A stretch of 21,888 nucleotides of DNA, from IMG/VR virus record IMGVR_UViG_3300032288_001148, positions 1 through 21,888 of that record. One strand, given 5' to 3'. How positions within the stretch are numbered: position 1 is the stretch's first letter; the number at the start of each line of letters is the position of its first letter. The notes below the pieces were generated by a model, which worked only from the letters and a program-made list of their open reading frames with translations, searched no databases and was not told the origin of the DNA. The DNA is from a virus. Shown here in pieces: positions 1,379-20,825 of this stretch. The translations under genes and the position numbers were made by a program.

Positions 1379-3691
1379 ATGGCAAATCTGGCCTCGATCC
1401 TTACCGATCCAAACTACGTCAACGCCAACGAAGCAACCAAGCGGGCCATCTTCGACAAGTTTTCCGCGCAAGACCCAAACTTCACCAACGCGAATCCGGC
1501 AACTCAAGACGCCATTCGTGCGCGGTTTGGTGTCCCCTCGCTTGGCCAACAAACTGCGCCAGAACTGCCCGAGTCATTGCGTCCGCGCACCGCTGCGCCT
1601 GAAGGCATCCCTGGTGAGCGCAAAGAGTCCGGGATGATGCGCCAAGCGGGCAAGGTTGTGCTCGACGTACTGGCGGGCGGTGTTCGAGGGGCGGGGTCGA
1701 TTGGCGCAACGCTGATCCGTCCCTTCGAGTCCGGGGAAGAAAACGTCGCCCGTCGTCAGAAGATGGATGAGGCGCTGCGTTCACTGGGTGCGGACCCGTC
1801 GTCCTTTGCCTACGGTGCCGGCAAGTTCGGCGCAGAGATGGCAGGCACGATGGGTGTGGGTGGCGCCCTTGCCGTGCCGGTTAAAGCTGCTGCGCGGGTC
1901 GTTCCTCAACTGGCATCCGCTGTGCCGGCGCTGACGAGTGGCGGGCTTGCCGCACAGACGACAGCCGGGAAGATTGCAGCAGGCGCTGTTACGGGAGCCG
2001 CTGGCGCTGGCCTGATCGAACCCGGGTCTGCAACCACCGGTGCGGCACTTGGCGCAGCGGTTCCCTTCGTGCCGGGGATTGTGGCCAAGGGCGCGGGCAA
2101 GTTGGCCGACCTGCGCCAGATCCCCAAGAACAAGGCTGCTGTCTTGGCGCGTGCATCGCTGGGTGACGACCTCGAACAGACGCTCAACGCTCTGCGCACC
2201 GCTGACCCCAGCGCCAGCGTGGCCGAGGTGACCGCCAGCATTCAGAACCCTGCGTGGCAAGCACTCGTCAAAGACGTGTTGGAAAAGAGCCCCAGCGGTG
2301 CTCAGTATCTGAGCAAGTTCAACAAACTGAGCCACGATGAGGGTGTCAACGCTCTGGCCAAGCTGGCCGGTGGCGCCACCGCAGCCGAAGTTCGTGGCAC
2401 CACGGAGGCTGCGAAAGAAGCGGTTCGCACCATCACGACGCCGATGCGTGACACAGCGCTGGCCCGGGCTAACCTGGGCAAGATGGTGGCCGAGTACGAA
2501 GCGCAGGCTGGCAAGTTGAGCGCAGAGGCTGCTGCCGAGGTGCAGAAGGTTCGTGATCTAGTTAACGCTGGCAACATTGCCGAGGCGTCTGCTCGACTTG
2601 ACCTGATCAAACGCAACCTGCCAGTCGGTTTGACCAAGTACACCTACAAGGGTGATTTGGCCCGCATGGCCGACGAGTGGGCTTCTCAGGCTGCGACTGC
2701 CTCGCTCGATCTGGGTCAAGGTTCTCGGTTTGCCAAAGCTGCTGCGGACGCCCTGCGCTCGGTGGGCATCAAGCCGCTTGAGAGTGAGCCGCTGATCCGC
2801 AGCCTGAAGGCCGTGGGCAGCAACCCCGAACTAGCCGCAAACGATCTGGTCGAGGCGTCGTTGCGCAACATCGCTGACGACATCGCCAAGTGGACCAGCG
2901 GCGGCGGCATCATTGACGCCCGCGCACTCGACGCCATCCGTAAGAACTCGGTCAACGCTACCGTGGCTCAGTTGAGATCCGGGTTTGACGCTACGGCGCA
3001 ACGCAACGCCGCAGCCGGCGTGCTGAGTCGAATCAAGCCAGTCATCGACGACGCAATCGAGTCTGCTGGCGGTAAGGGCTACCGCGAGTATCTGCAGCAA
3101 TACGCCAAGATGTCTCAGAAGGTCGCCGAGAAACAGTTGGCGGGCGAGGCTCTGGAGTTGTGGCAAAGGGACAAGGACGCATTTGTGCGCCTTGTGCAGA
3201 ACGAATCCCCGGACACTGTTGAGAAGATCCTCGGCCCGGGCAAGTACAACATCGCCGTCGAGTTGGCCGAAGACACTCTGGGTACTCTGCAGTCCCAGGC
3301 CAACAAGCGCCTGAGTCAGCTTGCAGCAAGCCAGCAGGCCAGCGATGGTCAGAAGGCTCTGGCAACGCTGCTGCGCGAGAACACGTCCAAGTTCCGCCTG
3401 CCGTCGTGGCTGAGCTTCTGGGGTGCTGCTGCCAACAAGACCATCAGCGAACTCGAAAAGGCTGTGGGAAGCCGCAGCATGAAGGTGCTGGCCGAGGCGA
3501 TGCAGTCACCCGAGAGTGCTGTAAATCTGCTGCAGTCCCTGCCCGCTGCTGAACGCAACCGGATATTGCAACTCGTTGCCGATCCGTCAAAATGGAGTGC
3601 ACCTGCCCGTGCTGCGGTTACTGGCGGCACAGCCGCCAGCATCAACATGCTTGCACCTGAAAGCAGCATCGAAAACGAATTTGTAAGGTGA
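1379..3691 (+). CDS. Large Ala/Gly-rich virion protein, probable DNA-ejection (internal core) protein
   Basis: This 770-residue protein starts at an ATG behind AAGGAG (1368-1373). Two near-identical 19-residue motifs open it: residues 10-28 (DPNYVNANEATKRAIFDKF) and 32-50 (DPNFTNANPATQDAIRARF), with a 22-residue period. Residues about 100-240 are rich in Ala, Gly and Val and hold several stretches hydrophobic enough to insert in or cross a membrane. The remaining 500 residues are mostly helical, with heptad-like Ala/Leu/Lys spacing. Large, helical, partly membrane-active proteins just upstream of lysis genes are typical of podovirus internal core/ejection proteins, which form a conduit through the envelope. 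No lytic transglycosylase or peptidase motif was seen. The assignment is inference from composition and gene order. Confidence 0.6.
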   Translation: MANLASILTDPNYVNANEATKRAIFDKFSAQDPNFTNANPATQDAIRARFGVPSLGQQTAPELPESLRPRTAAPEGIPGERKESGMMRQAGKVVLDVLAGGVRGAGSIGATLIRPFESGEENVARRQKMDEALRSLGADPSSFAYGAGKFGAEMAGTMGVGGALAVPVKAAARVVPQLASAVPALTSGGLAAQTTAGKIAAGAVTGAAGAGLIEPGSATTGAALGAAVPFVPGIVAKGAGKLADLRQIPKNKAAVLARASLGDDLEQTLNALRTADPSASVAEVTASIQNPAWQALVKDVLEKSPSGAQYLSKFNKLSHDEGVNALAKLAGGATAAEVRGTTEAAKEAVRTITTPMRDTALARANLGKMVAEYEAQAGKLSAEAAAEVQKVRDLVNAGNIAEASARLDLIKRNLPVGLTKYTYKGDLARMADEWASQAATASLDLGQGSRFAKAAADALRSVGIKPLESEPLIRSLKAVGSNPELAANDLVEASLRNIADDIAKWTSGGGIIDARALDAIRKNSVNATVAQLRSGFDATAQRNAAAGVLSRIKPVIDDAIESAGGKGYREYLQQYAKMSQKVAEKQLAGEALELWQRDKDAFVRLVQNESPDTVEKILGPGKYNIAVELAEDTLGTLQSQANKRLSQLAASQQASDGQKALATLLRENTSKFRLPSWLSFWGAAANKTISELEKAVGSRSMKVLAEAMQSPESAVNLLQSLPAAERNRILQLVADPSKWSAPARAAVTGGTAASINMLAPESSIENEFVR

Positions 3692-3696
3692 GTTCG

Positions 3697-3915
3697 ATGG
3701 AGTTCCAGAGCGGTGAAATCGACCCGGTGAGGTACGGTGTTCTGTGGCAGAAAGTACAGGACATGGACAAGAAGGTGGACAAGATGGAACGCCAACTTGA
3801 ACAGCTTCTTGAACTGGCCAACAAGGGCAAAGGCGGTCTCTGGTTCGGCATGGCCGTGGCGTCAGGCATCTCTGGGCTCATGGGGTTCCTTGTGAGTCAC
3901 TGGAAAGGAAGCTGA
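3697..3915 (+). CDS. Small coiled-coil protein with one C-terminal TM segment (XhlA/holin-accessory-like)
   Basis: This 72-residue protein has an N-terminal amphipathic coiled coil (VQDMDKKVDKMERQLEQLLEL) followed by one transmembrane segment (LWFGMAVASGISGLMGFLV) and a short basic tail. That is the layout of XhlA-type haemolysin/holin-accessory proteins. The ATG at 3697 is preferred because AAGGTGAG at 3685-3692 is a good ribosome binding site for it; an in-frame GTG at 3688 overlaps the previous stop and would add three residues. It stands 6 bp before the 3TM holin and next to the endolysin, so a part in lysis is likely: a second holin, antiholin or spanin-like helper. Sequence alone does not decide which. 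Confidence 0.65.
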   Translation: MEFQSGEIDPVRYGVLWQKVQDMDKKVDKMERQLEQLLELANKGKGGLWFGMAVASGISGLMGFLVSHWKGS

Positions 3916-13287: not shown

Positions 13288-15785
13288 CGGCACCACAGAC
13301 CGTGCAACCACATCCCGCGTCCATTGACGCATACATCCGACACGGCTGGAGCCTTGTACCCATCCCAGCGGGCACCAAGGGGCCACGCACCCCGGGCTGG
13401 AACCTGAGAGAAAACGCTCTCAAGAGTCAGGCCGACCTGCCGCAGGGCTACGGCATCGGGCTGGCCCATGCGTACAGCGGCACGATGGCGCTGGACATCG
13501 ACAACTGGACCATCACCACAAGTCTGCTGGCGGAACAGAGCGTGGATCTGCAGGCGCTGTACGACGCGCCCGATGCGGTGGTGATCAACTCGGGCAAGCC
13601 TGGGCGCGGCAAGCTGTTGTATGCGATGCCCTTCGGCGCTGCGCTGCCGTCGAAGAAGATTCTGCACAACGGAATCACCGCATACGAACTGCGCTGCGCC
13701 ACGGCTTCTGGCCTGACGGTGCAGGACGTGCTGCCGCCGTCGATCCACCCCGAGACACGGCAGCCCTATCACTGGGCAGGTCATGGACACTGGATGCGGC
13801 TGCCGGTGATTCCGCAGGCGCTGCTCGATGTGTGGCAGAAGTTACTGGATTTCGATAAGGTCCGTAATCTCCACATAGACGGCACGATTGACGCTTCGTG
13901 GGAAGAGATCCGGCAGGCGCTGGACTGTGTGCCTGCTGATTGTGGGCGTGACGATTGGGTGTCCATCGGCATGGCGCTGCACTGGGCCGGCACCCAGACA
14001 AACCAGCTTGATCAGGGCCTGCAACTGTGGAACGAGTGGAGCGCCACGGCGCAGGTCAAGTACCCCGGTGAGCGGGAGATCCTGACCCAGTGGATGTCGT
14101 TCAAGCCGGACAAGGCCACGTCGGTCAAGCTGGGCACCCTGTTCCACATCGCCAAGCAACATGGGTGGCAGCGTCCGTTGCCCGATGCGTCCGAGTTGTT
14201 CAGCAAGATCGAGATCCCGGTCATGGAGCCGCTGGACGTGCTCGATGGGTTGCGCCCGAAGCCGCCCGACATGGACATGAGTCTGTGGCCCGCCATCCTG
14301 CGCCAGCGGTCGCAAGAGATCTCGGAAAGCGTGGGCTGTGACCCTTTGGTCCCTTTGTTCGCTGGGTTGGCCGCTGTCTGCGGGGTGGTTGACGCCCGCA
14401 TTCGACTCGAACTGATGCCTGGGTTCCGTGTGCCGCCTGTGCTGTGGCTCATGACCCTCGGTGACCCAGCGGACAAGAAGTCACCCGGGTCGCGGCCCAT
14501 GCTGTCGCCGCTGAAGAACATCGAGGCCGAGGACCGGCCACGGTACGGCAAGGAACTGCTCGACTGGGAGGGCAAGGAGGCAGCCTACGCCAGCGCCAAG
14601 AAGGCGTTTTTAGAGTTCAGCGCCAGCCCCGAGGCCATGCTGGGCGGTGATCAGGCGCCCACGGTGCCCGAGATGCCCCCGCAGCCCGTGCCGCTGAAGA
14701 TCACGGTCAGTGACATCACCAGCCAGAAGCTGGTGCGCCAAGCTGCTGATCGTCCGCGTGGCCTGTTGTGCCACCTTGACGAGATGAACTCATGGGTGCG
14801 CAAGCTGACAGACAAGACCAGCGGCGAGGATCGCTCGGCATGGGTTGTCAGCTACGAGTCAGAACACTACGAGATGGACCGCGTGGGTGCTGGCTCGATC
14901 TACTGCGAGAACCTCGCTGTCAGCATCTACGGGAACATCCAGCCCCAAGTGTTCAGGCAAAACTTGGCCTCTCTCGCAGCGGATGGCCTGTTGCAGCGGT
15001 TTATACCTGCTGTGCTGCGCGGGAGCAAGACGAAGCTGGGTCACCCTGTGCCCGAGTACATGACGAGTTCTGGGGCTTGGGAGAACACCCTGCGCTTGAC
15101 CTACGCGCTGTCGCCCCAGACCTACCACCTGTCCACCGAGGCGTTCACCGCCTTCCGCGAGTTCCAGGCGTGGTACGAGGAGGCCAAACAGGACGAGCGG
15201 GTGCTGGACAGCGGCACCGAGTACATGACGGCCTTCGGCAAGCTGGAGGGCCTTGCAGGGCGCCTGATCCTCATGTTTCACCTCATCGAGGCACCGTTTG
15301 CACCCCAGGTGCAGGTCGATGTGGTGCACAGGGTTGTGAGCCTGATCAAGGGCTATGTGATCCCGGCGTACCGCTACGCCCTGGGCGAGGTGGGTGGGGC
15401 GATCACGAACGACTTCGAGCAGTGGGTGATCGACTACATCATCCAGATCAGCGGCGATGTGCAGACCATTGACCTGCGCACTTTGAAGAAGTCAGCACGG
15501 CGTCCGCTGGAGGGCAAGACCGACTGGCAGAAGGATCAGGCGGTCATGGACGCCATGCTGGTGCTGGAGCAGGCCGGGTGGGCGGTGCAGGTGGAGAGTG
15601 AACTGCACAAGAAGCGCGTGACCTGGGCGATCAACCCGTCGCTGCCGGCCATGTTCAAAGCGTACCGCGAGAAGGTGATCAAGGCCAAGCAGCGCCACGC
15701 GGACTACATCTACCGCCACGCCTACGAGAAGGGCTACGAGCGCAAGCTGGTCAAGGGGTATGACCCCGACACGATGGATGAATGA
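13284..15785 (+). CDS. Primase-helicase: prim-pol, PriCT-2 and DUF3987 domains
   Basis: This 833-residue protein is built of three parts. Residues about 10-180 are a bifunctional primase/polymerase (prim-pol) domain with the catalytic DID at 71-73, the SGKPGRGK loop at 103-110, where a histidine is usual, and VLPPSIHPETRQPYHW. Residues about 205-295 resemble PriCT-2 (ALDCVPADCGRDDWVSIGMA). From about 330 on is a DUF3987-type ATPase region, with GDPADKKSPGS at a P-loop-like position near 392 and a Walker B-like CHLDEMNSW near 496. DUF3987 proteins are taken to be replicative primase-helicases of phages and plasmids. The P-loop does not fit GxxxxGK[ST] well, so ATPase activity is less certain. 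It is the only plus-strand replication gene and is followed by a terminator. Confidence 0.83.
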   Translation: MTAPQTVQPHPASIDAYIRHGWSLVPIPAGTKGPRTPGWNLRENALKSQADLPQGYGIGLAHAYSGTMALDIDNWTITTSLLAEQSVDLQALYDAPDAVVINSGKPGRGKLLYAMPFGAALPSKKILHNGITAYELRCATASGLTVQDVLPPSIHPETRQPYHWAGHGHWMRLPVIPQALLDVWQKLLDFDKVRNLHIDGTIDASWEEIRQALDCVPADCGRDDWVSIGMALHWAGTQTNQLDQGLQLWNEWSATAQVKYPGEREILTQWMSFKPDKATSVKLGTLFHIAKQHGWQRPLPDASELFSKIEIPVMEPLDVLDGLRPKPPDMDMSLWPAILRQRSQEISESVGCDPLVPLFAGLAAVCGVVDARIRLELMPGFRVPPVLWLMTLGDPADKKSPGSRPMLSPLKNIEAEDRPRYGKELLDWEGKEAAYASAKKAFLEFSASPEAMLGGDQAPTVPEMPPQPVPLKITVSDITSQKLVRQAADRPRGLLCHLDEMNSWVRKLTDKTSGEDRSAWVVSYESEHYEMDRVGAGSIYCENLAVSIYGNIQPQVFRQNLASLAADGLLQRFIPAVLRGSKTKLGHPVPEYMTSSGAWENTLRLTYALSPQTYHLSTEAFTAFREFQAWYEEAKQDERVLDSGTEYMTAFGKLEGLAGRLILMFHLIEAPFAPQVQVDVVHRVVSLIKGYVIPAYRYALGEVGGAITNDFEQWVIDYIIQISGDVQTIDLRTLKKSARRPLEGKTDWQKDQAVMDAMLVLEQAGWAVQVESELHKKRVTWAINPSLPAMFKAYREKVIKAKQRHADYIYRHAYEKGYERKLVKGYDPDTMDE

Positions 15786-16227: not shown

Positions 16228-16524
16228 TCAAACGGGATTTTCTGACATGCTTTTTCCGGCAGTCGATGGGGTTGAGGTCTTGGTTCGGGATTTTTCGACA
16301 TGCTTAATTTCCCCGGGCAAAAACGCTGCATGTAGCGCAGGGGCGAGGGCTTCGATGGTGCGCAGAACGTCGAGAAGGCGAAGGGTTGCCGCCGATGGGG
16401 AGCGTTCCCCATTGGCCCATTTGCGAAACGTGAAGACAGGCACGCCCAGGTAGTCAGCGGCCTGATGTTCGTCGAGGTCTAGGCGAGCCATGAGGGCGGC
16501 AAAAGGGTTCGAGGGTGTGGTCAT
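16228..16524 (-). CDS. XRE/YdaS-like helix-turn-helix regulator
   Basis: This 98-residue protein has a clear HTH: LDLDEHQAADYLGVPVFTFR as helices 1-3, then KWANGERSPSAATLRLLDVL, the typical W-NGxRxP ending of XRE-type domains. A 30-residue polar, basic tail follows. Start ATG at 16524 has TGGAGAA upstream; the open frame extending far upstream crosses a terminator and neighbouring genes and is rejected. A complete terminator sits 17 nt before the start codon, so the gene is reached only by readthrough. It may regulate the early region, including the palindromes near 17500 and 18400 (inference). Confidence 0.7.
   Translation of the reverse strand: MTTPSNPFAALMARLDLDEHQAADYLGVPVFTFRKWANGERSPSAATLRLLDVLRTIEALAPALHAAFLPGEIKHVEKSRTKTSTPSTAGKSMSENPV
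16233..16305. repeat. Direct repeat, two 20-bp copies 53 bp apart
   Basis: CGGGATTTTCTGACATGCTT (16233-16252) and CGGGATTTTTCGACATGCTT (16286-16305) match at 18 of 20 positions. They lie in the 3' end of the HTH gene. The period of 53 is not a multiple of three, so the copies are read in different frames and cannot be kept for protein reasons. Both contain an ATG on the minus strand. It may be a small duplication or a pair of binding sites. Confidence 0.6.
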
Positions 16525-16936: not shown

Positions 16937-17157
16937 TCTTCAATCTCCTCTTCGGTCTCTTCGAAGTGCTCCAGCATCTCGGTCCAGTTGATCTCATCGG
17001 TGCACAAGAAGTCGCGCATGAAGTCGGGGATGGACTCCTCGGCCTCTTCGATGGTGTAGCGGGCGGACTCGACGTCCTCGCGCGTCTCGGGGTTGAACCA
17101 GACATTCACCAGCCAAGTGGCGCGATTGGTCCAGCCGTTGTAGGTGCGGTCGTTCAT
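16933..17157 (-). CDS. Small acidic phage protein (DUF7249-like)
   Basis: This 74-residue, strongly acidic protein starts with YNGWTNRATWLVNVWFNPET, the hallmark of a widespread small phage/plasmid family (DUF7249-like, from memory) of unknown function. The C-terminal half is rich in Glu and Asp and ends in EETEEEIEE. An acidic surface could mimic DNA, as several anti-host proteins do, but this is speculation. The start follows AAAGGAAC and the recurring GTAACCCGTAAACGTAA element. Confidence 0.75.
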   Translation of the reverse strand: MNDRTYNGWTNRATWLVNVWFNPETREDVESARYTIEEAEESIPDFMRDFLCTDEINWTEMLEHFEETEEEIEE

Positions 17158-17182
17158 GGTGTAGTTCCTTTACGTTTACGGG

Positions 17183-17275
17183 TTACAGGATGCCCCAGAA
17201 GTGCAGGGCGATGGGGAGAACGAAACAGGCCGCGACAAGGGCGGCAATGATCAAGTCGAGGATGAGTCTGCGCAT
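17183..17275 (-). CDS. Hydrophobic microprotein, 30 residues, single TM segment
   Basis: This short gene has an excellent ribosome binding site, AGGAGGT (17288-17282), 6 nt before the ATG at 17275, and ends TAA at 17185-17183. The product starts with two arginines (MRRLILDLIIAALVAACFVL) and ends in PIALHFWGIL. That is one membrane helix with a positive N-terminal anchor, so the N-terminus should stay in the cytoplasm. Its stop TAA lies inside a copy of the GTAACCCGTAA element of the next gene. Function unknown. Confidence 0.65.
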   Translation of the reverse strand: MRRLILDLIIAALVAACFVLPIALHFWGIL

Positions 17276-17287
17276 GATGTGACCTCC

Positions 17288-17461
17288 TCAAATGTCTTGA
17301 TACTGAGCGCGAATGGCTTCTGCTTGTTCCTTGGTCTGACCAAAATATTGATGACCAGACTTGCCCTCCGCGCACCAATCATTGATGCCGTATTCGATCT
17401 GGCGCTCGATGTTGAGATCAGAGAAGGATGGGTTGCAGACTTCGTAGGCTTGGTGGTTCAT
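17288..17461 (-). CDS. Small acidic hypothetical protein, 57 residues
   Basis: ATG at 17461 follows GTAAGGACTGACATC, with AAGGA as ribosome binding site, and the frame ends TGA at 17290-17288. The product (MNHQAYEVCNPSF, then IERQIEYGINDWCAEGKSGH, then FGQTKEQAEAIRAQYQDI) has a protein-like mix with no known motif. It is the first gene after the TTGACA promoter at 17501-17529. The Shine-Dalgarno of the next gene overlaps its stop codon. Confidence 0.65.
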   Translation of the reverse strand: MNHQAYEVCNPSFSDLNIERQIEYGINDWCAEGKSGHQYFGQTKEQAEAIRAQYQDI

Positions 17462-17500
17462 GATGTCAGTCCTTACAGGTTACGGGTTACAAGGAAACAC

Positions 17501-17529
17501 AGTGTCACCCATTGGGTTTGCATTGTCAA
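17501..17529 (-). promoter_or_regulatory. TTGACA promoter with an 11-bp palindrome filling the spacer
   Basis: On the minus strand TTGACA (17529-17524) is a perfect -35. GACACT (17506-17501) is a weak -10 (three of six) at the ideal 17-bp spacing. The last 11 bases of the spacer are the perfect palindrome ACCCAATGGGT (17517-17507). A protein bound there would block polymerase directly. The -35 overlaps the stop codon of the AP2-like gene. It should drive the genes from 17461 leftward. Confidence 0.65.
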
Positions 17530-17550
17530 GCACTTTTTGACCCAATGGGG
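17507..17550. repeat. Two ACCCAWTGGGT palindromes (operator-like) left of the AP2-like gene
   Basis: The copies are ACCCATTGGGT at 17507-17517 and ACCCAATGGGG at 17540-17550, with centres 33 bp apart. The first is in the promoter spacer. The second encodes the last residues (YPIGS) of the AP2-like protein. They are of the same type as the array at 18369-18668 on the other side of that gene. Confidence 0.7.
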
Positions 17551-18155
17551 TAGACCCCTAGACGATAGGCGAAAACGGCAGCATCGCGTTCTTCAGCCGT
17601 GGCGAAGTAGCCCAGGTGCAGCACTCGCGCACCGTCTCGGACTTGCGCCTTGTAACGCGGGGGCTTTGCTGGACGCGGCGCACGGTGCACCATCTCACCC
17701 GTTTTCAGGTAGTGCGCGACAACCCCAGCGCGGTAGGTGCGCCCATCGAAGCGCACCCGATCCCCGCACGGGGTCAACTTCTCCACGTCCCGCGTAAATC
17801 GCGTCTTGTCACGTCGCACCACCTCGACACGGGCCACGGTGCGCCGCATCAACTGAGCGTCAATCAGCGCGAAGGCTTCGCCAATCGTGCGAGGGGTTCG
17901 CACTTGAGGCTTCGCGGGCTTTTTGCTTTCCCGCACTTTCGGCGGGGAAGGATTCGCGGGTTCAGGTTTGACCACTCGCACGGGCTCAGACTCACCGAGA
18001 AGATGGAGCAGTTGCGAATCGGTCAAGCGTTCGAGTTGTTCGGCGTCCGCATCTTCGTCAGTCTCAAGCACTCGGGAGACTAGGCGCAGGTGCGCCAGTT
18101 GTTCGGGTGTCAATCCGACTAGCTCAGCGTCATCATAGAAACGAATCATTGGCAT
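17526..18155 (-). CDS. AP2-like DNA-binding protein, probably derived from an HNH-AP2 endonuclease
   Basis: This 209-residue protein has an acidic helical N-terminal third (YDDAELVGLTPEQLAHLRLV and further helices), a Pro/Lys-rich linker (60-90), and a C-terminal part with two recognisable blocks. Residues 133-156 (RVRFDGRTYRAGVVAHYLKT plus GEMV) match the segment that precedes the HNH core in phage HNH-AP2 proteins. Residues 167-200 (RYKAQVRDGARVLHLGYFAT and on) match the AP2 DNA-binding domain. The DHINxxxxDN catalytic stretch expected between them is missing. It therefore probably binds DNA without cutting it. ATG at 18155 has AAAGGA upstream; the longer frame to 18272 crosses a strong promoter and is rejected. 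Palindromes on both sides make it a candidate regulator of that array. Confidence 0.65.
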   Translation of the reverse strand: MPMIRFYDDAELVGLTPEQLAHLRLVSRVLETDEDADAEQLERLTDSQLLHLLGESEPVRVVKPEPANPSPPKVRESKKPAKPQVRTPRTIGEAFALIDAQLMRRTVARVEVVRRDKTRFTRDVEKLTPCGDRVRFDGRTYRAGVVAHYLKTGEMVHRAPRPAKPPRYKAQVRDGARVLHLGYFATAEERDAAVFAYRLGVYPIGSKSA

Positions 18156-18192
18156 GGTGTGTTCCTTTCTTCGGTGTATCCATGTATCCGGC

Positions 18193-18221
18193 ATCTTAGC
18201 GCGTTGGTGACAAGATGTCAA
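18193..18221 (-). promoter_or_regulatory. Strong sigma-70-type promoter for the AP2-like gene
   Basis: TTGACA (18221-18216), a spacer of exactly 17 bp, and TAAGAT (18198-18193) give six of six and four of six matches. The -35 is overlapped by TGACAAGATGTCA (18208-18220), a perfect 5-bp inverted repeat around 3 bp. It is the best promoter in the window and should be active at once after injection. Confidence 0.75.
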
Positions 18222-18246
18222 GGATTGAGGGATACGAGTTTGAAGG

Positions 18247-18287
18247 ATTCCCGGGAATAAGTGCTGTTTCAAAATCGTATTGAAACA
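18247..18287. repeat. Two perfect palindromic sites upstream of the strong promoter
   Basis: ATTCCCGGGAAT (18247-18258) is a perfect 12-bp palindrome. TGTTTCAA (18265-18272) and TTGAAACA (18280-18287) form a perfect 8-bp inverted repeat around 7 bp. Both lie 26-66 bp upstream of the -35 of the AP2-like gene promoter, a usual place for operator or activator sites. Confidence 0.6.
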
Positions 18288-18368
18288 AGGGGTCGCGGGC
18301 GCGCGAAAGGCAAACCTGTCGTTCGTTCACCATTTTGCCGGATACACGGATACAAACCAAGGGAAATG

Positions 18369-18668
18369 CCCCATTGGGTCAGTTATTCAATACCCCAATG
18401 GGTCCATTGTTCCCATAGTCCAGTAATTCCCCCAAATGGTCCAGGAACCCCGGACCCATTGGGTTTAAGCCAGTTTTCAGAGTATCGGGGAGATACTCGG
18501 ACCCAATGGGTTACAGATACTGGGCTGTGAGTATTCGCCGGGATACTCGGACCCACTGGGGTCGCCGGGGTCTGGGGGAGGGGGAGGGCCGGCTGGTTTG
18601 AGGGTCCGGCCACGTAGGCATCACGAACCCCGTGAAAATTTTTTTCAAAAAGTAGAAACCCAGTGGGT
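18369..18668. repeat. Array of ACCCAWTGGGT palindromes with composite repeat units
   Basis: Six clear copies are at 18369-18379, 18393-18403, 18454-18464, 18501-18511, 18551-18561 and 18658-18668. A degenerate one is at 18430-18440. The centre bases vary (TT, AA, CT, GT) while the CCCA/TGGG arms are kept. At 18480-18511 and 18529-18561 the palindrome is joined to an inverted repeat (GAGTAT with ATACTC), giving two tandem units about 50 bp apart, each ending GATACTCGGACCCA-n-TGGG. Two more palindromes lie at 17507-17550. Confidence 0.75.
18567..18588 (+). other. G-quadruplex-forming motif
   Basis: Four G-tracts of 4, 5, 5 and 3 bases are separated by loops TCT, A and A. Loops this short are expected to give a very stable parallel quadruplex. 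A GGCCGG...CCGGCC hairpin (18587-18611) adjoins it. The motif lies on the plus strand between the palindrome array and the terminase genes. Confidence 0.6.
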
Positions 18669-18700
18669 CACTTCCCCCTACTTCCTACAATTCCAGCCAT

Positions 18701-18710
18701 GTGCTACGAT
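18701..18710 (+). promoter_or_regulatory. Possible extended -10 promoter for the terminase genes
   Basis: GTGCTACGAT contains TG-C-TACGAT, an extended -10 with four of six matches; no good -35 is present. The start point would fall only a few bases before the ATG at 18721. With no Shine-Dalgarno visible, the terminase message could be nearly leaderless. Confidence 0.3.
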
Positions 18711-18720
18711 CCTTAACACT

Positions 18721-19284
18721 ATGGAACAAGCATTCGCTCCATCCGTAGGCACGGTTGTCACCGGTGAAAGTGCACTCCCAAACTGGCTGTCGTGCCCGGA
18801 CCCGCCAACACCTCGCCCCACGAAGGCTGCGAGAGAGTTGCTGCACATCGAATACGAGCAGATATTCGAACGGGTGATCGAGGACATCTATCGGGGTCGA
18901 TCCCTGCAGTCGCTCATCGAGGGTGATCCGAGGGTCATCTCGTATGAGGACTTCTTGCGCTGGGTCAAGCGTGACCCGCAGCGCCATGAGCGGTTCAAGG
19001 AAGCGCAGGAGATGCGCACGGAGTTCTTGGCCGGGGAGATCCTTGAGATTGCCGATGGCGTCGAATCGGTTGACCCCACCTCGAACGACACGGTGAACCG
19101 GGACAAGTTGCGCATCGACACGCGCAAGTGGCTCATGGGAGCGCACAACAAGAAGCGCTACGGTGAGACCAAGCAGATTGAACTCGGTGGCACGATCTCG
19201 ATCACTGAAGCGCTGGCGCAGGCCCAGGCCCGGGTGATCGAGGGTGAGGTCATCGACGTAACCCCTCGACTGGAGAACAACTGA
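18721..19284 (+). CDS. terS: Terminase small subunit
   Basis: This 187-residue protein has the pattern of phage small terminases: a helical N-terminal region with an HTH-like segment (IYRGRSLQSLIEGDPRVISY, then EDFLRWVKRDPQRHERFKEA), then EFLAGEILEIADGVES, RDKLRIDTRKWLMGAHNKKR and YGETKQIELGG, the usual core and oligomerisation part. It recognises the packaging site and loads the large subunit. ATG at 18721 starts the conserved part without a clear ribosome binding site; an upstream extension in frame (to about 18598) runs over the repeats and is unlikely. The stop overlaps the large subunit start (TGATG). Confidence 0.82.
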   Translation: MEQAFAPSVGTVVTGESALPNWLSCPDPPTPRPTKAARELLHIEYEQIFERVIEDIYRGRSLQSLIEGDPRVISYEDFLRWVKRDPQRHERFKEAQEMRTEFLAGEILEIADGVESVDPTSNDTVNRDKLRIDTRKWLMGAHNKKRYGETKQIELGGTISITEALAQAQARVIEGEVIDVTPRLENN

Positions 19285-20825
19285 TGCAGAAGATGCGCTA
19301 CTCGCCGGAGGAGGAGCAGCTTCTGATGTCGCAGCTTTGGAGTCCGTCTATCAAGGACGATCCGGAGACGTTCGTGCTGTTCGCGTTCCCGTGGGGGCAG
19401 AAGAACACACCGTTGGAGCACTTCAAGGGGCCACGGGCGTGGCAGCGCAGGACGCTGCGCAGGATACGGGACTTCATCAAGGAGAACCGAGGGCGACTGA
19501 CCGAGAAGGAGTTGATCGAGGCGCTGCGCAGGGCCGTGTCGTCGGGCCGGGGCGTGGGGAAGTCAGCACTGGTCTCGTGGCTGATCCTGTGGATGCTGAG
19601 CACGCGGATAGGCAGTTCCGTCATCGTGTCGGCTAACTCGGAGAACCAGTTGCGCAAGGTCACCTGGGGTGAGTTGACCAAGTGGGTCACGATGGCCATC
19701 AACGCCCACTGGTGGGAGCCGACCGCTACCAGCCTGAACCCCGCTGCGTGGTTGACTGAACTTGTCGAGCGGGATCTGAAGAAGGGCACCCGGTACTGGG
19801 GCGCTGAAGGGAAGTTGTGGTCGGAGGAGAACCCTGACGCCTATGCCGGTGTGCACAACATGGACGGCATGATGGTGATCTTTGACGAGGCTAGCGGCAT
19901 CCCGGACTCGATCTGGAGCGTGGCGGCGGGCTTCTTCACGGAGAACATCCTCGACCGGTACTGGTTCGCGTTCTCCAACGGACGGCGTAACACCGGGTAC
20001 TTCTACGAGTCGGTGGACGGCAACAAGCGGGACTTCTGGGAGAGCGAGAAGATTGACGCCCGCACAGTCGAGGGCACCGACAAGAGCATCTACCAGCAGA
20101 TCATCGAGGAGTACGGCGAGGACTCCGACGAGGCCCGGGTCGAGGTCTACGGTGACTTCCCCAAGAGCGGCCAAGACCAGTTCATCGCGCCGCATCTGGT
20201 GGACGACGCCATGAAGCGGGAGCAGTGGAAAGACATGACCGCACCAGTCGTCATCGGCGTGGACCCAGCCCGGGGTGGCATGGACAGCACTGTGATCGTC
20301 GTGCGCCGTGGGCGCGACATCGTGTCAATCAAGCGGTTCCGAGGCGACGACACCATGACCACAGTCGGGCACGTCATCGACGCCATCGAGGAGTACCGGC
20401 CAGCACTGACCGTCATCGACGAGGGTGGCCTGGGCTACGGGATACTTGACAGGTTGACCGAGCAGAAGTACAAAGTGCGCGGGGTGAACTTCGGCTGGAA
20501 GGCCAAGAACCCCGTGATGTGGGGCAACAAACGCGCCGAGATCTGGGGAGCCATGCGCGACTGGCTCAAGTCGGCCAGTTTGCCGCAGGACAGGCTTCTC
20601 AAGGCCGACTTGACCGGTCCGATGAAGAAGCCCAACTCGGCGGGCACCATATTTTTGGAGGGCAAGAAGGAAATGAAAGCCCGTGGCTTGGCATCACCCG
20701 ACGCAGCAGACGCGATTGCGGTGACGTTTGCATTTCCTGTTGCTCATCGAGAGTATGTTGATCGCCCGCGTACCGTTACAATGCGCGACAGAAGCGTGAT
20801 GTCTTCGAGTTGGATGGGTGCGTAA
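19284..20825 (+). CDS. terL: Terminase large subunit (ATPase-nuclease)
   Basis: This 513-residue protein has all parts of a large terminase. The ATPase domain has Walker A SGRGVGKS (87-94) and Walker B MMVIFDEAS (D201, E202), with SNGRRNTGYF (231-240) where the coupling motif is expected. The RNase H-like nuclease has GVDPARGGMDST (D327), VIDEGG (D379) and SPDAADA (D473/D476) as the expected metal-binding acids. It drives DNA into the prohead and cuts the concatemer. Length is normal and no residue appears to be lost. The ATG overlaps the small subunit stop and its own TAA overlaps the next ATG. Confidence 0.93.
   Translation: MQKMRYSPEEEQLLMSQLWSPSIKDDPETFVLFAFPWGQKNTPLEHFKGPRAWQRRTLRRIRDFIKENRGRLTEKELIEALRRAVSSGRGVGKSALVSWLILWMLSTRIGSSVIVSANSENQLRKVTWGELTKWVTMAINAHWWEPTATSLNPAAWLTELVERDLKKGTRYWGAEGKLWSEENPDAYAGVHNMDGMMVIFDEASGIPDSIWSVAAGFFTENILDRYWFAFSNGRRNTGYFYESVDGNKRDFWESEKIDARTVEGTDKSIYQQIIEEYGEDSDEARVEVYGDFPKSGQDQFIAPHLVDDAMKREQWKDMTAPVVIGVDPARGGMDSTVIVVRRGRDIVSIKRFRGDDTMTTVGHVIDAIEEYRPALTVIDEGGLGYGILDRLTEQKYKVRGVNFGWKAKNPVMWGNKRAEIWGAMRDWLKSASLPQDRLLKADLTGPMKKPNSAGTIFLEGKKEMKARGLASPDAADAIAVTFAFPVAHREYVDRPRTVTMRDRSVMSSSWMGA

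Follow-up and report, generated by a model that had tools for sequence, protein, structure and literature searches.

The locus analyzed here raises the question of why a family of short palindromes is gathered at the junction between the early genes and the terminase genes of a phage, and which protein binds them. The window, i.e., the whole stretch of DNA under analysis, is a 21,888-nt (21.9-kb) IMG/VR fragment from a tailed relative of phage DSL-LC05. Searching it with no more than one mismatch to ACCCANTGGGT returned eight copies of the 11-bp palindrome (four exact and four with one mismatch) at positions 17507 to 18668, a span of 1.2 kb:

17507-17517: palindrome 1, ACCCATTGGGT, within the spacer of PL (the leftward promoter), with the same register in relatives
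17540-17550: palindrome 2, ACCCAATGGGG, within the final codons of the AP2-like gene and upstream of the −35 box of PL
18369-18379: palindrome 3, CCCCATTGGGT, central array
18393-18403: palindrome 4, CCCCAATGGGT, central array
18454-18464: palindrome 5, ACCCATTGGGT, central array
18501-18511: palindrome 6, ACCCAATGGGT, central array
18551-18561: palindrome 7, ACCCACTGGGG, central array
18658-18668: palindrome 8, ACCCAGTGGGT, promoter-proximal, centred 58 bp upstream of the ATG of terS

In first-order simulations of the window, a 1.2-kb stretch contained 0.17 copies on average and 2 at most, compared with the eight found in 17500-18700, which confirms the eight-copy cluster that an earlier sequence-only reading had described. 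That reading had seen no other clear copy in the window, and this holds: two further copies with no more than one mismatch were found elsewhere (at 14085 and 19677), both inside genes. It had also counted six or seven copies upstream of the terminase genes, of which six stand and the seventh does not.

Next, we asked how far the cluster extends beyond this fragment. A terminase query yielded 80 relatives, and the same array was found in the same place, where the leftward early operon meets the terminase-late operon, in dozens of related freshwater IMG/VR phages as well as in DSL-LC05. Specifically, sites with no more than one mismatch numbered 557 over 303 kb of upstream sequence versus 50 over 429 kb on the terL flank, most of the latter representing one conserved spot within terL. 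Typically, the leftward promoter has one or two sites, the central array has four to seven, and a single site lies just before the terS promoter; in XRE-positive near-complete records (37–39 kb), nearly all exact sites fall within a single block of ~0.5–1 kb. The 11-mer is thus conserved in relatives and infrequent elsewhere in the phage genome. Its consensus in relatives is ACCC-R-N-Y-GGGT (ACCCRNYGGGT), and the W centre with fixed CCCA/TGGG arms proposed from the window proved too narrow. DSL-LC05 (OR003940) belongs to the same phage group and shares the array layout and a homologous XRE gene with the window, but it is without the AP2-like insertion. When the literature was searched for early/late operator arrays of this kind, no match was returned at the terms used. 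The palindromes are almost certainly bound by a small phage regulator other than the AP2-like protein, and the earlier suggestion of an operator system for a dimeric phage regulator was right.

Two proteins had been named as candidate binders, one of them the AP2-like protein, whose gene lies in the following setting:

17526-18155, (−) strand: AP2-like gene, an insertion between the PL pair of palindromes and the central array
18193-18221, (−) strand: promoter of the AP2-like gene, TTGACA-17-TAAGAT
18175-18189, (−) strand: putative AP2-like operator, GGATACATGGATACA, at the start site of the gene and just after its −10 box
18340-18354, (+) strand: second, inverted copy of the same repeat, GGATACACGGATACA

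Position within the window's array speaks for the AP2-like protein as the palindrome-binding factor, but the gene is present in a minority of loci, is absent from 52 of the 57 arrays in the terminase-only loci described below, and occurs in L024, L188, and L213 without any array. Moreover, it has a repeat of its own, the period-8 direct repeat GnnnACAyGnnnACA, which is found in 11 of 21 AP2 loci versus 1 of 101 others (p = 3e-9). It is therefore highly improbable that this protein binds the palindromes. The "AP2" label was likewise unsupported by every library used, with no match to the Pfam AP2 model at E ≤ 5 and none to an AP2 fold when the complete protein was compared. Two homologues (L193, 1950-2471, and L162, 3879-4454) retain an HNH-like DNRIxNL stretch, which points to descent from an HNH homing endonuclease; the family is likely a former enzyme of this type in which the HNH stretch has mostly been lost.

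The second candidate is encoded within the leftward early operon:

16228-16524, (−) strand: XRE/HTH regulator of 98 aa, the predicted binding protein on the basis of co-occurrence, fold, and profile matches

To avoid selecting for the gene, we counted co-occurrence in loci that were fetched without an XRE query and were long enough to judge (terminase-only loci). The array and XRE occurred together in 57 of these, the array without XRE in none, XRE with fewer than four sites in 2, and neither in 6 (Fisher p = 3e-7). Pooling all loci gave 81, 0, 5, and 7, respectively, a set skewed by the inclusion of loci fetched with XRE; in an independent scan of the XRE family, the array was present in nearly all loci reaching terS. 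The five pooled loci with XRE and fewer than four sites (L171, L172, L249, L223, and L162) include several with altered sites. In L060, L171, and L172, where XRE is diverged, 10–13 copies of the half-site CAATGGGTT occupy the array position instead, and the recognition segment of XRE, as read in L060, is VKITTWRNW versus the usual VPVFTxRKW. XRE of the L077 type (VSVFTLRHW), including that of L249, is found with sites of the CTGGGTGCA type. L223 and L162 carry both the AP2-like insertion and XRE, with just two to three recognisable sites. Diverged XRE proteins thus appear to accompany diverged sites, a covariation that rests on two diverged XRE types.

The AlphaFold model of XRE is a compact helical HTH (helices 7–66 at a pLDDT of about 95) with a loose tail, and this helical HTH domain places the protein in the XRE/lambda-repressor-like HTH class. 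Profile searches matched the HTH of MqsA (PDB, E = 7e-4) and, weakly, P2 C, while fold matches to HigA2, Aca2, and the DNA-binding domain of P22 c2 were weak (E ≥ 0.1). XRE scored below the curated cut-offs of the MqsA antitoxin models (20.2 bits versus 30 for Pfam MqsA; 19.9 versus 61.8 for TIGR03830), the alignment covering the C-terminal HTH part only and not the N-terminal zinc domain typical of that family, so that XRE does not qualify as an MqsA antitoxin. By profile or fold, the nearest solved structures are therefore the HTH domains of MqsA/HigA-type antitoxins and the Aca2 autoregulators, proteins that autorepress via palindromes. Unlike the MqsA/HigA antitoxins, XRE has no identified toxin partner adjoining it, and its probable target includes the late operon. 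The co-occurrence with the array supports the earlier nomination of the XRE-type gene, and we strongly infer that XRE binds the palindromes.

Having a candidate protein, we examined how the sites are placed relative to the two divergent promoters, beginning with the leftward one:

17501-17529, (−) strand: PL, with TTGACA at 17529-17524, a 17-bp spacer at 17523-17507, and GACACT at 17506-17501

Palindrome 1 forms the last 11 bp of this spacer, much as the sequence-only reading had it, though the second hexamer, GACACT, is a poor −10 (3/6). In relatives, PL reads TTGACA-16/17-TAGAAT or TATAAT, again with a site in the spacer. In a set of 44 dissimilar upstream regions, a leftward promoter that overlaps a site was scorable in 39 (mean −35 score of 5.5 of 6), and 29 of them reached at least 9 of 12 matches; the site centre lay 11–13 bp before the −10 end, i.e., in the spacer of a near-consensus promoter, in 26 of these 29, and among the remaining cases some sites cover or abut the −35. 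As a separate observation, a repeated leader of the GTAACCCGTAACCGTAAAGGA type precedes several leftward early genes (17132-17187 and 17436-17491 in the window; 3390-3415 and 3560-3580 in L005). A site within the spacer would be suited to a repressor, and the operon so controlled encodes XRE itself; the arrangement strongly suggests that XRE represses PL.

The rightward side of the junction is organized as follows:

18621-18643, (+) strand: terminator-like hairpin, TCACG-AACCC-CGTGA with a T-tract, between the array and the last site/late promoter
18682-18710, (+) strand: PR of terS, with a weak −35, TTCCTA, at 18682-18687 and an extended −10, TGcTACGAT, at 18702-18710 (ATG at 18721)
18721-19284, (+) strand: terS (Sf6-type small terminase), which opens the late operon
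19284-20825, (+) strand: terL, large terminase

A sequence similar to the hairpin is found in most relatives. PR is weak in relatives as well, with a −35 score of 3.9 of 6 and a −10 score of 3.8 of 6. The terS −10 box, which is often extended, lies 9–12 nt before an almost invariant CACTATG (18702-18723 in the window, and in relatives), and no Shine-Dalgarno sequence of terS was seen in the window or in relatives; the late terS mRNA is probably leaderless or starts with a 3-nt leader. In nearly all loci, the centre of the last site lies 47–49, 57–60, or 67–70 bp from the terS ATG, upstream of the −35, and these three classes differ by one helical turn. The phase of the last site at 10.5 bp was pronounced (R = 0.83, p < 5e-5; 40 sequence clusters less than 75% alike). 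On the terminase tree, at least 40 changes of distance class were counted, possibly an overestimate if the phages have recombined with one another, and 89 of 93 loci still fall into one of the three classes. Gaps within the array, by comparison, show little or no helical phase, and we accordingly do not claim a wrapped nucleoprotein there. A helical phase maintained towards the promoter, and not from one operator to the next, suggests contact with RNA polymerase and hence activation, and XRE likely activates PR. The last-site centres, at about −45, −55, and −66 from the predicted start, are not at textbook class I or II positions, and an upstream helical phase could equally serve phase-dependent repression.

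This bears on the possibility that XRE, in the manner of Cro or CI, acts solely as a repressor and keeps PL and PR off until another factor relieves both operons. The site at PL occupies a classic repressor position, XRE is a compact HTH about the size of Cro, with no large second domain, and its homologue in DSL-LC05 is annotated "repressor protein C" (the word "repressor" is absent from the DSL-LC05 paper; PMC10611076). However, the PR-proximal site leaves the promoter uncovered yet holds its helical phase to it, and a promoter as weak as PR would need help rather than repression. In addition, relatives without an integrase would have little use for a stable lysogenic repressor. No tyrosine or serine recombinases (PF00589, PF00239) were found in 14 relatives, a prophage search of 84,980 GTDB species genomes returned one 3.2-kb MAG contig and no prophage, and DSL-LC05 is predicted to be virulent by BACPHLIP (PMC10611076). 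For these reasons, a lysogeny operator is not borne out and the array regulator is unlikely to be a lysogeny repressor, although extrachromosomal lysogeny may occur. Overall, we regard pure repression of both promoters as a minority possibility, with perhaps a modest chance of being correct.

The array could alternatively be a replication origin composed of iterons, as the sequence-only reading had also proposed, with XRE as the initiator or an origin-binding protein. Multiple sites share one intergenic region, a conserved A/T-tract lies near the array, and a conserved inverted-repeat element lies beside it. This element, of about 100–125 bp, is bounded by inverted TGTGACAA/TTGTCACA; it spans 18206-18324 in the window, where it is degenerate, and most relatives have it at the corresponding position (L005 at 3695-3822, for example). 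Its inner arms complement each other better than do swapped-arm controls, but RNAalifold revealed almost no covariation, and for that reason we do not claim an RNA fold; an Rfam search of the region gave no match. It may be a structured RNA, an origin hairpin, or a protein-binding pair. Because it persists in L024 and L053, which have neither array nor XRE, it does little to mark the array as an origin. The palindromes are, moreover, tied to promoter elements, the GC skew of DSL-LC05 does not turn at the array, and iterons are regularly spaced direct repeats, whereas the sites here are palindromes with irregular gaps of 13–240 bp. An origin is thus improbable.

Even less probable is that the small terminase binds the array as a pac site. 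The array does lie directly upstream of terS, but L024, L053, L176, and L190 lack it while their terS is about 71–77% identical; furthermore, the array reaches as far as PL, follows XRE, and covaries with XRE. Both the origin and the pac site are less likely than an early-to-late switch.

We propose that the array probably acts as an early-to-late gene switch. This reading draws on the array and how widely it is conserved, on its co-occurrence with XRE, on the site that overlaps PL, and on the helical phase of the last site before a weak PR. The XRE/HTH protein, made from the leftward early operon, would bind the palindromes as operators. On the PL-spacer site, it would shut off the early operon, its own gene included; on the pre-terS site, at a constant helix face to the promoter, it would aid RNA polymerase at the weak PR, so that the terminase and structural genes would be expressed. 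The central array may raise the local concentration of XRE or set a threshold. We hold this account, in which XRE is at once an operator-binding repressor of PL and an activator of PR, with moderate confidence.

Such an arrangement resembles the operator systems of lambda CI/Cro and P22 c2, in which a small HTH regulator acts at several operators around divergent promoters and in which the repressor can also activate. Unlike lambda and P22, the present phages have no integrase, XRE has no second domain, the sites are more numerous and shorter, and no cognate second repressor was seen. A further parallel is p4 of phi29, the product of an early gene. Bound to inverted repeats that lie between the early and the late promoters, p4 acts as a repressor of A2b and A2c and as an activator of A3, a promoter with a poor −35 (PMC3100819). 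The window system likewise has several inverted-repeat sites in the early/late interval, a weak late promoter, and agreeing site positions, which suggests an analogous logic. However, p4, described as a novel fold (PMC3100819), uses long, 15-bp-gapped sites and works with p6, whereas the window system has a lambda-repressor-type HTH and about 8–13 short, 11-bp sites; the two share no known homology.

Loci without the array and XRE offer a wider perspective. In L053/L173, L176, and L190, inverted repeats of the AAACATC/GATGTTT type occupy the same place, and those of L053 (4760-5160) include a pair around the leftward promoter. More tentatively, the early/late region may be a modular socket for replaceable regulator/operator cassettes, the promoters and the inverted-repeat element staying in place, with XRE as a bifunctional switch. 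The cassettes would be XRE with its palindromes, the AAACATC-GATGTTT repeats with their regulator, and the HNH-derived AP2-like protein with its direct-repeat operator; we consider this broader idea possible, though doubtful at present.

Taken together, the locus provides a testable early-to-late transcription switch for a mostly uncultured group of freshwater phages without a recognisable integrase. It would pair one small protein with its DNA code over dozens of genomes, in which natural variants of each occur, and it includes a probable former homing endonuclease that has settled within the switch along with its own putative operator. The three helical-register classes, in turn, may represent a natural experiment on a phage activator touching RNA polymerase.
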